A stretch of 50,624 bases of DNA from Hysterium pulicare CBS 123377 (lineage: Eukaryota; Ascomycota; Dothideomycetes; Hysteriales; Hysteriaceae): contig AJFK01000201.1 in the NCBI GenBank assembly GCA_000467715.1, positions 1 through 50,624 on the forward strand, written 5' to 3'. Both the position numbers and the translations under genes were made by a program. Position 1 is the stretch's first letter. Each line of letters opens with the position of its first letter. Under the pieces are notes generated by a model. It had not been told where the DNA came from and did not search any database. It was given only the letters and a program-made list of their open reading frames with translations. Shown in pieces: positions 17,489 through 43,688 of this stretch.

Positions 17489-19791
17489 CTACACACAAGC
17501 CGTCGGAGTGTGTGAGGGTTCTGGGAAAATACCACCATGCATACCGTAGCCATACTGGAATGGAGATGGAATCCTGTCAACGGGATCAGCTCCCGTCATA
17601 CGCCCCGGGGAGGTCGATCGGGACAGAAAATGATTTTGGCTTCTGGAAGAGTATCTGGAATCACTGGCACCATCGACAAGCTGAGACAACTCCTTGAGTG
17701 GTGAGGGTGGACTGTTTGAGCCGGACGATTTGTTACTTCCGGAGTCGTTGGCCGAAACATAATCGCCAGACCCATCAGTTGAAGCGTCCTTGACAATGGC
17801 AGAGGTGGTTAATTGAGGGGAGCCCTTTCCGTTGGGAGTGCCAAACTGGTTTCAGCGTTAGTATCGGAGGGAGAGGCCAGCCCGGGACGCGGAGGAGCAC
17901 GTACGAAACAAAACTTCTGAATCAACTCATTGTATTCCGCCGACTGCAAATCCGGTTTTTCCAACGAGAGGGCATCCGGTCGAGTGCCTGGAATAGGGGC
18001 GGTGAGATGACCAGTAGTCTTCGTATTGGTACTGGCACTCTTGTTGCTCTTGTCAAAGTAATCGTTAGCTTCGGTTGACTTTGACACCTTGATTCCGCTG
18101 CGATCTCCCATAGCAGTCTGGGCATTGGAAAGAGCGGCAGTCAGAGAGGCGCCAAAGTCGTATCGAGTCGAGAAATGTTGTCCCGCGGGGTTCCGACGAG
18201 GTGCTTGATCTGGAAAGAAGTTGCCCCGATTCTTGGATTTAGGTTTGAGGCGGATAGTAGAATTAGGGGAATCGCCAATAATCCCCCGAGTAGAGCCAAA
18301 CTCAAACTTATTGTCAAGGCTATGGCCAAAGTCATCATCGAATGAGCCGACCGGCATGGAGCGAGGTCGTGGTCCTGTTGGGGAATGTCTGCTGCGTGGA
18401 ATGGCGCCCAAAGTACCGGAGGTATGATGTGCTTGCGCGCCACCCCTGACCTTGGGCTTTGTCTTCTTAACAAAATCCACCTGGAAGTTCATCGATGCGT
18501 TGTTATCCCAGAACTCCTGTCCGTTGACATTGTATCGCACACAAAGCAACAGGGTCTTCGACTCCAAGTTTGCTTGGTCGGTCAACTTGATGTTGAAATT
18601 AAAACGGTCGTACCCATCATTACTTTGCTTCTTACGGACGTCATTGTTGTACTCTGCGACAACCTCCGATGTAGTCTTCCAATAGTCCAATGTGAAACGG
18701 GCTACGACGAATTTATGAAACGCGATATTGGCGACTGCTACGCTTCCAACCAAAGTCTTATTGTCGGATGACAGAAAAACTCTTTCCACTCGCACAGGCA
18801 TTGTCTTTCGTTCGTACGTCTCTCGGGGGAAATTGGCCAATTTAATTTCCCATTCGACTGCTTTGGATTTATACCCGTCATCGTACCCAAATGGATACTC
18901 ACTCTCGCTATCGTAGGTTTCAACAGGAGAAGAACCCGCACTGACAGCGATAGGGCGGTCAACCTGGAGAAAGTGACGGACATGTTCAAGTTCTTCGTTG
19001 AAATGGACAGCTTTGGAGAAGGTTGGTGTGCCTGGCATGCTCGAGGGTCTTCGACGGGATGGGGGTCGAAGGGCGGGCTTCACCAACTCGCCGGACTTCT
19101 TACGGAGTAGAGGCGGTTTTATCCGCAACTCGTCATCCTCGACATCGCTGTCTTCTGAAGAACTTATGACTGGGTTGGTGTTAAGGCCTGGAACATGCTG
19201 CGACAGCGTTATCTCACTCGAAGATCTGGAATGAGATATTTTCCGTGCTTCCGGGGTAAGGGCCGGCCGGATCGGCGGGGTGGTTGCAGCTGTGGTTGCC
19301 GCTGTGTTCACTGGTGTATCCGTGGCACCATCCTCGCCTCGATTGGGTGAGTATTCTCTTTTTAAGTCGATTTGCTGCAGTGCTTGTTGAAGCTCCTTCA
19401 GATTATTCAAATCGCGGCCTCGCTCTTCATCGTCGGAGGAATCAGGAGGAGTCGTTATCGCACCTGACGGAATCAGAAGATCGTTTACAGGAGAGGGAGA
19501 TTGTCGGAGGCTACCATTTACAGAGGGTCCCTGGCTTTTCTCGGATTCCGAAGCAACGTTTACGTTACCATTTTCCACCTGACCATTGTTGGTTTGGTTG
19601 GAGATGGAGGGTGATCGTCGGTGTTTGTTTAGGTAGGATGTCGAGGAGACTGAACGGGGAAGGGCAGGTCTTTGGTGAGTAACGGGCAACCCGGCTATTC
19701 CCTGTTCACTATAGGAATGATTGCGGCTCAAGACAGGAGTATTTGATGTTGAGGTTGCAGGTGACCGCTGGGTTGGCGGAGTGTAAGGCAT
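17489..19791 (-). CDS. gac1: PP1 regulatory subunit with CBM21 domain (Gac1-like)
   Basis: Exons 19791-17905 and 17845-17489 around a 59-bp intron (GTACGT, CTAAC, CAG) give 747 residues. Gac1-type subunits bring type-1 protein phosphatase to glycogen and activate glycogen synthase. The RVxF-type docking motif KAVHF is at residues 260-264. The CBM21 carbohydrate-binding domain follows at about 305-440 (VRVERVFLSSDNKTLVGSVAVANIAFHK, VARFTLDYWKT, YDRFNFNIKL, LLCVRYNVNGQEFWDNNASMNFQVDF). The N-terminus is Ser/Pro-rich with many possible phosphosites, and the C-terminal half is disordered. The short C-terminal exon (119 codons with stop) continues the Ser/Pro-rich tail and ends in TACV. The MPYTPPTQRS start is the usual one for fungal orthologs. 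Confidence 0.92.
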
Positions 19792-25700: not shown

Positions 25701-28673
25701 AAACCGCATTATTAATATAAGCTTCACAATTCATCTATCATGCATCATGAGATATAGTGGTACACCCTCGCCTCCCAAACACGCCCCCAAACATGATCCC
25801 AATCAAACCTCTTGCTCGCCCTCCTCCCTCATGCATCATCGGAAAGGCCCGGATCCTCATCTCAGTCGAAGACAGTAAAATCGTTGCAGCAGATCACTAT
25901 CGAGTTGCAGGACCACGATCAATTTTTAGAAAGTTATCTACCCATCTGTGACTACGGACCTTGCTATTATGTATACTCTGCGTTATCTTGCTCGTCAAGT
26001 TTCGGACTTTATACGGAGCGTGTGTGAGAGCTCGTCCCTTGATAAGAAAGGGTCGTCGGTTGTTGATCGTTTACCTACAACATCCCCGCCGACTACATGT
26101 TAAACCATCTCGTTAGTTTGGCTCCGTACTTGGGAGTCTCCGTGGTGATCATCATGTTGAGGATTATCAGTAAGCGACCGAAAATCGGTCTGGCAACGAT
26201 CGTGATGAGTATTGAAATGGCACTCACGGCTCCGAAAGCAGCAAGATTGCATTTGTCTCTAGCAGTAGTGGCACCTGTCAAAAACGTTCAGGTTGCATAC
26301 ATAATAGTCTACGTGTGCTGTCTAAGGCAACCAGCGTCAAATAATGTGTTTACGCCTCACCTCAATCGTTTACAACACGAACATACAGAGGTATCGCAAT
26401 ATGCGCGCCGTACCGTAACTCAATGCTGTGCAACAAAGAACATGCAGACTTGGCGATCAAATGCCCCAAGTGGTTCGGTCGACTACGCCTATCAACCACC
26501 AAGCGAAGAAAAAAGTTAATCAGCAACATAAACACGAATACCCCGAGACGTTGCCGAAAATTGAAGCGGTTCGGGATTTCGACATATTCAAAAAGAACAT
26601 TTCAGATTCTCGGGACCCAAGCGCTTGTCTAGAAGGAGGAGGCCTTAGGAATGCTCGGAATCTCAGGATCCTCGGCGGCCGGGAGAATACAAACTCTGTC
26701 CTGGATTTAGGGAAGCTAAGGTCCCGTAGTTGCCGCTGGGATGATCGCGGATTGATACGGTACCTTTTTAGTAGCGGCACACACCTTTTTTTTTGTTGGT
26801 GTTGCAGTACCCGGATTGGGATTTTTTCTTTGAATGACCGGGCGCTTGTTCTCGGTTTGCCGCTTTGGGTTTGCGAGCCTGCTCCGTAGTTATGTCCAGG
26901 GCAGGGAGAGGCGAAAGTGCTGATAAATAATGCCTGCAGAGATCAAGCAGATAGTTTGCGTACTCCTTGCATACTCAATCATTTGATACGTCAGCACTGC
27001 AGCGGTGCCGTTATCCGCCTCCCTTCATACATCAGGAATAGAATTACGGTTTAGTGTAGAAAGCAAGAATTCAAACCAGTGGTGTTGTTGTCATGTCGGA
27101 GTTGTGTGAGTGTGGCAACCATAAAAGGCCCTTTTCGATTGGAAATGGGTTTGATTGGGTGCTATCGCCTGCGCATATCTTGTCATACCCTGGTAGATAT
27201 CAAAGCCTACTTGCGACATGGGCGGGGAGATAGAAGCGCATGAGATAACGTGCTACGTGCCATGCATGGAGTCTGGTGTGGGCCCATTGAGGCAGAGCGT
27301 TGCTAAACAGCAAATTCCTGCATAGTAAGAAAAGTAGAATCTGCATCGTTTCGCATTTGACCAATAGACCAATAATCTTGCTGTAGATGCTAGAGATGTA
27401 GAGAACCTCCACCGGTCAAGAACTGGAGATACCTCGGAGAACCTTCCTGCTTTGTTTAACTAAGTCTTGTCGGAGTGGAGACGAGTCTGGAGAAAGTGGA
27501 GTATCAGTCGAATTATTCTGGAGAAAGGGTCTCATGAGGGGAGAGGCTGCAGGACCAAATGCACTCCCTACGCGCCATGGCTGCAATCATGATCCACAGT
27601 GGGTCTATGAGACCCTTAAAATGCTCGGTTGGATAGCTTTGCAGCGGCTCCTGCTAGGATTGGTGCTTGAGGCAAGACTGTATTCATCAACTCGCACCAC
27701 CGCTTGCGAATATATCTTAAAGAGGGATACCCCTCCGTGTCGGCTTCCCTTAACCGCGATCTTGCGATCCATGGTGAGCGGCCCGCGAGTTCTTGGACCC
27801 TGGAGGAGATGCAGCGTGGCGTTCGTCCGCAAACAACGGTCAACTTGGCTTACGAAGGGTGTTGGTGAGGAACTCGCATGATCGGCGACTTTCGTTACGG
27901 AACAGAGGAAAACGCCATGTAAGCTTGAGCTGGCAGAACCACCAAGCCTCTTGATGGTCCCGTCGCAGGGTCCTCGAGTGAGTCTGGGCATGGAGGGGCA
28001 ATGAGGGGCTCCGGGTCTGAACCACACCATCAAAGAGAAGATGCATCAGCTCGTCCGACGTCGACCACATTGTGACGGAGCGTAAGGTCGAGAGGCAGAA
28101 TGAGAGCTTCTGGTTTCTGGGGTCGTATCTAGAACGTTTGTTGGGAGCGATTGGCGTGTACTGAACCGTGTATAGCACGTTTGGAAGGGTTGGGTGGATT
28201 CTTGGAGGTACTTGTAGGTACATGCACATACCTAGGGCATCTGCCGCTCCGAGACCCTTTCCCCGGACTATGCTAACAAGTATGGCAGTAGCGGAGCCTG
28301 TTAGTTCTGGCACTAGTTCGTCCAAGGTGCGATTCTAGACGTTCTGTGGAGGTCTCAGGCTGCGCTTGTAGTCTAGCCATGAGAATTCCCGAAGCGTGAA
28401 AAGCATACCGAAGCACAGCAGCCGGGCGGAAGAGTTTTGCGGGAAGTTTGAAGGCGCTGACTAACCAGATGACTAACTCAGCATTTGATTGGCTCAGATC
28501 CACGATCCCGAGTGCACGGATCCTATGATGTCTTTCGACATGGAGAGCTTCAAGGCTCTATTCAAACTTCAACACAGCACCATTGTGCATCCGCTTGTAA
28601 GTCAACTTGTTACTGCTCGCAATGCCATGCAAAGCCTGATATCCAGCATGAAGTTTGTCACCACATTTCCTAC
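19792..28673. other. Long gene-poor interval (about 8.9 kb)
   Basis: No ORF here has a recognisable domain, and none combines into a convincing spliced gene. The left part is the promoter and leader of gac1, and the right end the promoter of the BolA gene. ORFs at 22631-22852, 24767-24997, 25757-26027, 26428-26889 and 27840-28325 were read and not recognised. Base composition is ordinary, so it is not a RIP-type AT block. Some parts (25400-25800) are C/T-rich as in fungal leaders, so unrecognised multi-exon or non-coding genes cannot be excluded. Confidence 0.45.
22511..22542. repeat. Perfect 16-bp tandem duplication
   Basis: TTTTCATAAGATCACC occurs twice in direct succession. It is too small to interpret. 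Confidence 0.9.
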
Positions 28674-42505: not shown

Positions 42506-43454
42506 TATGGGGTTTGATGTTTAGTGTTGTTAGGTGGCTCTTAGATGGGTTTTTGTAGATATGTGGTTTTGGATAACGTAGCCGTATGCAAAGGAAGAGA
42601 GTACGTGTTTGTTGTATCGAGGCGCAGTATCAACGTATGTGGCCTTTGACAAGTTTCGATGAACTTTGGATTGAATAGGTATACTTCAAGCTTGGTTTCT
42701 CGATGAAAGCTTTGATGGACTGAATTGAAGAAAGGAGAAGGATATATCGTGACATTAAAGGAAGTAAATACCTCACCGTCTCCCCACCTCCCACCTACCG
42801 TCATCTGCCCAAGGTAGTGGTAACCAAGGTGCCGGTCTGGAGTAACAGACAAATATCATCCAAGCCTCACTCCACCATACTCTTCTCCGCATAGTGCACA
42901 GGTGATACCCGTCCCATCTAGCCCCTTCGGTCCTCCGTCCGGCGAATTATCGTGCGCAGCCAGTCTCACATGCCCATGTCTGCCGCCTAATGACGCACCC
43001 GGCTTGCTTCTCGGCCGCGGGGTTTGGGGAATTGTATAGGCTGATGCGGAGATTATTGCGGCTCGAAATTCACATCAGGTGTTACTGCATGAGGGTTGGG
43101 TTGGCGGGTTGGGTGATGATCGGGTGAGAGGAACGGGGGCCGAGGTTTACCGCGGCATTCAGACTCCGGGGTGTATGTAGGATGTGGAGGGCACGTGAGA
43201 CATGCGGATGCGCCTTTCGATTTTGATATTCAAAAAATGGTCAGTTTTTTGGAGTTTCATTGTTTTTCTGAAAAGGGGTAAGGGGGGTCGTATAAGTTGT
43301 GTTCTTGAGAATGAGAGTTTTCGTCTTTCGGACTGGTTTCCCTACAGCTACGGAGGCGCCACACGGGTCTAAGATACAGAGAACACGCCCTGAATGTTTT
43401 AGTATCAGTAGAATAGCACAAAAAATTAGTGGAAGACTATCAAGAAGGCAAAAA
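42506..43454. other. Intergenic, no recognisable gene
   Basis: Upstream flank of the small membrane protein gene on the left and the downstream flank of the tRNA gene on the right. A 103-codon minus-strand ORF at 42541-42852 shows no recognisable feature. Confidence 0.5.
43450..43454 (-). terminator. RNA polymerase III T5 terminator of the tRNA gene
   Basis: Five T residues on the minus strand follow the discriminator base of the tRNA (43455) without a gap, as expected for a Pol III termination signal. Confidence 0.8.
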
Positions 43455-43517
43455 TAGTCCCACTGGGGATCGAACCCAGGACCTTTCGCGCAGTTTAATC
43501 ACGATGTGAAGCGAACG

Positions 43518-43574
43518 CTGATGCCGATGTTAGTGCTGCATAGAGAAAGCACATGAGACATTGATTAAACTTAC
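43518..43574 (-). other. Spliceosomal-type intron inside the tRNA D-stem (57 nt, after nucleotide 24)
   Basis: The segment begins GTAAGTTTA, has CACTAAC and ends GGCATCAG. Its donor is identical over eight bases to that of the 51-nt segment. Its removal joins GGTATGA to CGTTCGC and restores C25 opposite G10. An internal GCAG at 43536-43539 could be an earlier acceptor but would leave 18 extra bases in the tRNA. Confidence 0.75.
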
Positions 43575-43586
43575 TCATACCACTAG

Positions 43587-43637
43587 CTACAAATTGTTAG
43601 CTTTCTGTTGCAGAGAACTCTAAAAGTTCAAACTTAC
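43587..43637 (-). other. Spliceosomal-type intron inside the tRNA D-stem (51 nt, after nucleotide 11)
   Basis: The segment begins GTAAGTTTG, has a branch-site box GCTAAC near its end and finishes TTTGTAG, nine bases after the presumed branch A. All three signals match the introns of the protein genes in this window. Its removal joins ATGGT to CTAGTGG and restores the D-stem base C12 opposite G23. Confidence 0.75.
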
Positions 43638-43674
43638 ACCATGAGACTTTGAGAAGAATTTCGAAAAAAGCTCG

Positions 43675-43688
43675 TAAATATAGTTATA
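43675..43688 (-). promoter_or_regulatory. TATA-like element upstream of the tRNA gene
   Basis: TATAACTATATTTA on the minus strand ends 27 bp before nucleotide 1 of the tRNA. Upstream TATA elements near -30 drive Pol III tRNA genes in some fungi, such as fission yeast. Here one would be useful because the internal A box is cut by the first D-stem insert. Confidence 0.45.

Follow-up and report, generated by a model that had tools for sequence, protein, structure and literature searches.

At least six nuclear tRNA genes of one fungal genome carry inserts that look like the introns of messenger RNA genes. We regard it as very likely that a nuclear tRNA-Val(CAC) gene is functional, that its two such inserts are U2-type spliceosomal introns, and that at least five other tRNA genes are interrupted in the same way. 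The Val gene lies in the window, the whole 50,624-nucleotide stretch that was analysed, which is an entire contig (C160) of the 37.2-Mb, 596-contig assembly that we searched. An earlier note on the window had described this one gene, and the finding is confirmed as wider than first noted, comprising a set of tRNA genes with introns of spliceosomal type. The anatomy of the six genes, the borders of their inserts, the signature that these share and the Pol III-type signals around them can be read from the sequence. On a larger scale, spliceosomal introns have probably spread through the nuclear tRNA genes of this lineage, mostly sparing the promoter boxes, and have reached genes for Trp, Ile(AAT) and Arg(ACG) of which no other copy was found; translation of the whole proteome would then require spliceosomal processing of Pol III transcripts, and four of the tRNAs would need two unrelated splicing machines, one after the other.

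Anatomy of the tRNA-Val(CAC) locus

The entire tRNA-Val(CAC) gene, with its three inserts, occupies positions 43455..43648 of the minus strand (locus L009), to which all features of the locus given here belong. It was delimited by direct reading and in-silico cutting, and its acceptor stem pairs at 7/7 and its T-stem at 5/5 positions, G-T pairs counted. Cutting yields an exon 1 of nucleotides 1-11 (43638..43648); a spliceosomal-type intron 1 of 51 nt behind nucleotide 11 (43587..43637), with the make-up GTAAGT..CTAAC..TAG; an exon 2 of 12 nt, covering nucleotides 12-24 (43575..43586); a spliceosomal-type intron 2 of 57 nt behind nucleotide 24 (43518..43574), with the make-up GTAAGT..CTAAC..CAG; and the rest of the gene (43455..43517). 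Both introns were also put to the motif and placement tests. The CTAAC of intron 1 (43596..43600) and that of intron 2 (43529..43533) are branch-site candidates, with 10 and 12 nt, respectively, from the branch A to the last G. Inside the rest of the gene lies an ordinary anticodon-loop intron of endonuclease type, 14 nt long (43491..43504), which ARAGORN places behind nucleotide 37 (i(37,14)), where the earlier note had put it. The gene further has a B box, GGTTCGATCCC (43466..43476), a TTTTT adjoining the 3' side of the tRNA (43450..43454), which is a candidate Pol III terminator, and a TATA-like box at about -40 to -30 (43678..43688).

The earlier note had held that the tRNA is complete only without the 51 and 57 nt, and this is borne out: at the unspliced locus no tRNA is reported by ARAGORN, and none by Rfam at the gathering score, and once the two inserts are taken out ARAGORN returns tRNA-Val(cac) with a 14-nt intron. 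The GTAAGT, CTAAC and TAG or CAG that it had named in both inserts are directly legible in the sequence. Removal rebuilds the D-arm, as it had proposed, with GTC and GAC of the D-stem paired again, and its view that the joins are exact is upheld by the placement test, in which each Val insert has a single placement that yields the spliced product, namely GT..AG. Lying behind nucleotides 11 and 24, the 51- and 57-nt inserts depart from the canonical position of endonuclease introns, after nucleotide 37. The Val tRNA would depend on both the spliceosome and the endonuclease, if the inserts are what they appear to be.

Only in part can we follow the statement that the inserts are exactly like the mRNA introns around them. 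It holds for the one intron checked, of 59 nt (17846..17904, minus strand; GTACGT..ACTAAC..CAG), in a gene for a CBM21/phosphatase regulator; its break was found by tblastn, its 5' border was taken from the motif, and it has the same make-up as the tRNA inserts. A second likely mRNA intron, in a SET9-like gene near 35.9 kb, is absent from the strict-motif matches. The top named matches of three proteins encoded in the window are all from Dothideomycetes: Zopfia rhizophila (76%) and Lindgomyces ingoldianus (74%) for the CBM21/phosphatase regulator, Zopfia (64%) and Lepidopterella (67%) for the SET9-like protein, and Lophium (75%) and Mytilinidion (72%) for an epimerase.

Five further split genes and the gene count

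Five more split tRNA genes were recognized in the same genome by a tRNA model or by T-arm/acceptor pairing. They are Ala(CGC) (C386:34277-34419), with an insert of 52 nt behind nucleotide 25; Arg(ACG) (L092, C478:22469-22587), with 47 nt behind nucleotide 31; Ile(AAT) (L093, C478:63562-63438), with 52 nt behind nucleotide 21; Trp(CCA) (L095, C536:49830-49689), with 52 nt behind nucleotide 20, in the D-loop; and Gly(TCC) (C578:32457-32601), with 48 nt in the variable loop. Together with the Val gene, the sites of the extra inserts are 11/12, 20/21, 21/22, 24/25, 25/26, 31/32 and the variable loop, in tRNA numbering counted by hand from alignments. Discovery relied on the tRNA-model search and on T-arm patterns, followed by a test of T-stem and acceptor pairing at sites that were fetched in part, and made no use of the splice motif.

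Among the well-formed tRNA genes that were read from end to end, 26 in all, 6 are split and 20 unsplit, which is not a count of every tRNA gene; the split ones hold seven extra inserts of 47-57 nt. Set apart from the 26 are L027, L028 and the best match of L029, which are odd or badly paired although they score 42.9, 42.7 and 32.8 bits, at or above the Rfam cut-off; adding them gives 6 of 29. Also set apart are two tRNA-like copies on L029 and L094, the sites of the AGTTCGA T-arm pattern, which occurs 67 times in the assembly, and the T-arm sites C233:42638 and C244:984. At the last two (C233:42638-42662 and C244:984-1008), T-arm/acceptor strings have paired T-stems and mark possible tRNA genes, split or not. 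The odd or badly paired tRNA-like sequences are found on L029 (C493:31300-33300), L094 (C493:13600-15200) and L028 (C129) and at C387:74178; three of these are near neighbours on C493, and the group is perhaps a tRNA-derived repeat.

The available tools differ in what they recover. Searching the whole assembly with the Rfam tRNA model gave 20 matches and missed Glu(CTC) twice, Gln(TTG), Glu(TTC), others, and all split genes except Gly; because it misses real genes, it is unusable as a census. A broad B-box pattern proved too loose (566 matches versus 532 in the control), and a tighter T-arm pattern gave 100 matches versus 58. Once spliced, five of the six split genes (Val, Ala, Arg, Ile and Gly) receive the right isotype from ARAGORN; the spliced Trp gene, with its ordinary intron still in, is called Leu(cag), and we name it Trp from our own inspection of its D-arm and anticodon. 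In the unspliced state, Ala, Arg and Gly still receive the right isotype, with odd long introns, and Ile is called Glu; overall, two of the six unspliced genes are missed and a third is misnamed. The Trp(CCA) gene, the only one found, has an A31-C39 mismatch, and directly behind it GGTTCAAATCC imitates a T-arm, which is the false T-arm that the pattern search matched.

Hand-cutting revealed an ordinary anticodon-loop intron in four of the split genes (Val, Ala(CGC), Gly(TCC) and Trp). Of the 26 genes, 13 or more contain such an intron, the longest measuring 36 nt by hand-cutting, in Thr(CGT) (L022), where ARAGORN gives 16. Isotypes follow our own reading, in which L021 is Lys(CTT), L024 is Tyr(GTA) and the first gene of L025 is Gln(CTG); the names from ARAGORN differ, being Ser(cga), Phe(gaa) and Ile(gat), respectively.

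Transcription signals and gene integrity

In all six split genes the acceptor stem is paired at 7/7 and the T-stem at 5/5 positions, again with G-T counted, and signals of the Pol III type surround them. A TATA-like box between -55 and -21 is present in 6/6 split genes, 13/20 unsplit genes and 6.4% of 3552 background stretches, with the proviso that the sequences flanking the split genes had been seen before the TATA expression was chosen, and that Arg and Trp qualify only via TATTTA; the boxes of the split genes start at -46 to -29. A T-run of at least five begins no more than 20 nt downstream in 6/6. The B box (nucleotides 52-62) is present in all six, and the A box (nucleotides 8-19) is intact in five, being interrupted by Val intron 1. 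Six of the seven inserts leave both boxes untouched, which a Pol III gene could tolerate, and introns that mostly spare the A and B boxes are what a constraint from the Pol III promoter predicts.

The consensus of the A box is TRGYNNARNNG, and no match to it is present in the unspliced Val gene. The start of Val intron 1 creates TGGTGTAAGTT, which by eye fits the consensus except at the last base. Given this near-match, the donor site of Val intron 1 may take over the role of the A box, along with the TATA-like box.

The same signals bear on a rival in which the tRNAs are borne in spliced Pol II transcripts and processed out of them, instead of being encoded by intron-bearing Pol III genes. 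Spliceosomal introns usually reside in capped Pol II RNA, a point in its favour, as is the A box broken in the Val gene. We nevertheless hold it to be improbable, as all six genes have a B box, a TATA-like box and a T-run, and five of them an intact A box. U6 also argues against it, being a Pol III RNA according to PMC10484740, with a spliced intron in the fission yeast gene according to titles cited in PMC5832005.

Transcription of the split genes by Pol III is what we favour. These genes could be dead copies, the intact genes having been missed by the searches or being absent from an assembly in 596 contigs. According to a review (PMC4090602), a eukaryotic tRNA gene with an insertion in the D- or T-arm mostly has many synonymous genes beside it and is regarded as a pseudogene. 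The earlier note had named a pseudogene as the alternative for Val and a count of other Val(CAC) genes as a check. With the spliced Val query, two matches came from the whole assembly, the gene itself and, at 82%, a gene for Ala(AGC); no intact copy was seen among the best candidates that such a search scores. With Trp, Ile(AAT) and Arg(ACG) as spliced queries, the best candidates were likewise confined to the split loci, each exon matching separately. These four genes are the ones that the DNA searches for copies covered, Ala(CGC) and Gly(TCC) lying outside them, which leaves the rival some room. Each T-arm/acceptor string occurs once, among 40 pattern places for Val, Arg, Ile and Gly, and among 53 for Ala(CGC).

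For Val itself, a Val(TAC) gene exists in the genome, whose tRNA could decode GTG through wobble pairing, so Val(CAC) is perhaps dispensable. Trp has a single anticodon, and a fungus with such a gene set would have to splice its Trp gene. Five further genes with the same kind of insert also make a lone pseudogene an insufficient explanation. With intact copies absent for the four genes searched, and with stems, TATA-like boxes and T-runs retained in all six, we give the dead-copy reading only a slight chance, and working genes remain our preferred interpretation.

The splice signature and its counterparts

All seven inserts of the six split genes combine a GTRNGT donor, a yTrAy branch site and a YAG acceptor, in a motif that was drawn up after seeing the inserts. 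An outside yardstick comes from a survey of fungal U3 introns (PMC5832005), in which GTRWGT makes up almost two thirds of the donors and nearly all others are one change off, branch sites are RCTRAC in most, and acceptors are YAG. Under a stricter consensus of this kind, the donor is GTRWGT in four of the seven inserts and one change away in the other three, the branch site is RCTRAY in five and one base off in two (the Ala and Trp introns), and the acceptor is YAG in all. From the nearest branch A to the last G there are 9-18 nt in 7/7 inserts, inside the fungal range of 6-36 nt given in the same source.

The borders agree with the motif. Five of the seven inserts have a single placement that gives the tRNA product, and it is GT..AG; Ile and Gly have two placements each, one of which is GT..AG. 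For the 47-nt intron of Arg(ACG), ARAGORN unaided arrives at precisely the GT..AG borders, and as the program is blind to splice sites, these were found independently of the splice motif. Agreement in all seven inserts exceeds chance: in the background, 46 of 3,386,290 segments of the same five insert lengths, taken from the DNA stretches read, fit the full motif, true introns included; the 46 reduce to 30 distinct segments because loci overlap. A scan of the window with the strict motif is not enriched, giving 4 matches versus 5 in the reversed sequence; 30 Markov controls average 1.2 and reach 4 at most. The four matches in the window comprise the two Val inserts, one mRNA intron and one site at 28214. 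The weight of the evidence hence lies in the motif falling exactly on borders fixed by tRNA structure, and not in enrichment by scanning. Two of the inserts, the Trp intron and the first Val intron, contain TTTT, at which Pol III might weakly stop, and none has a longer T-run.

Inserts at such positions are also known from systems with another splicing mechanism, and it is conceivable that the tRNA splicing endonuclease removes those described here, the GT..AG being coincidental. According to the review PMC4090602, eukaryotic non-canonical tRNA introns are supposedly rare, with nucleomorphs and Cyanidioschyzon merolae named as exceptions, and archaea, C. merolae and nucleomorphs have inserts in the D-arm, anticodon stem and variable region, sometimes more than one per gene, as here. 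The many ordinary anticodon-loop introns of the genome suggest that the endonuclease pathway is presumably present. However, the archaeal and red-algal introns are linked to a bulge-helix-bulge in that source, whereas its full 4-bp core is found at none of our seven inserts (0-3 of 4 pairs, in a test of the full core that leaves the relaxed forms hBH and HBh' outside), and the inserts of the Guillardia nucleomorph measure 3-24 nt (PMC4090602) as against 47-57 nt here. Moreover, donor, branch and acceptor occur in 7/7 inserts versus GT..AG in 0/13 hand-cut anticodon-loop introns, a set without the Ser genes and Gln(TTG), whose ARAGORN-placed introns are not GT..AG either; GT..AG is likewise seen in 0/12 introns that ARAGORN places in unsplit genes. 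Removal by the endonuclease is therefore very unlikely. More doubtful still is that the inserts are recently transposed introner-like elements imitating introns, for although the introns of Arg(ACG) and Ile(AAT), which lie about 41 kb apart on one contig, have an identical 9-nt start (GTAGGTCTC), no other similarity among the seven appears at E 0.1, and Val intron 2, the only insert searched, has one match in the assembly.

The closest counterparts of what we take to be spliceosomal introns are found in other non-coding RNA genes. According to PMC5832005, frequent interruption by introns has to date been known, among small structured RNAs, from U3 and U6 alone, and fungal genes for these nuclear RNAs carry mRNA-type introns with comparable donor, branch, acceptor and branch distance, but the hosts here are six tRNA genes. 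In this genome five U6 matches of 97-107 nt (C383:19419, C300:150420, C342:19370, C6:142985 and C411:61680) span the whole model with no insert and so are intronless. Fungal nuclear rRNA genes, for example of Mycoarachis inversa (listed in PMC11782384), likewise hold mRNA-type introns in a non-coding RNA, the host being rRNA instead of tRNA. Canonical nuclear tRNA introns are present as well, in the anticodon loops of Val, Ala(CGC), Gly(TCC) and Trp, but the new inserts lie elsewhere in the tRNA and are GT..AG with branch sites. The claim in the earlier note that no fungal tRNA with mRNA-type introns is known agrees with the open-licence PMC literature, where none of the matches listed reports tRNA genes with spliceosomal introns; in the main text of PMC4090602, no word starts with 'spliceosom'.

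From these features we infer transcription by Pol III, spliceosomal removal of the inserts, an order of steps and a functional product. Pol III, aided by the upstream TATA-like box and the B box, would make one precursor, from which the spliceosome would take out the GT..AG introns as lariats, uniting the D-arm with the remaining cloverleaf; the tRNA endonuclease would then cut out the 14-nt anticodon-loop intron, and tRNA ligase would join the halves. Maturation of tRNAs finishes by RNase P, 3' processing, endonuclease and ligase.

The introns of nuclear tRNAs and those of mRNAs are usually taught as separate splicing worlds. If our interpretation is right, tRNA genes that combine both intron types would demonstrate that tRNA precursors can be substrates of the spliceosome, and the supply of essential tRNAs in this fungus would be tied to spliceosome activity. 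The genes would also offer a natural test of intron entry into Pol III genes, in which most introns sit where the promoter boxes permit. Finally, tRNA finders could miss or misread genes in such genomes, and as ARAGORN does so for three of the six, apparent gaps in fungal tRNA sets may conceal further split genes.
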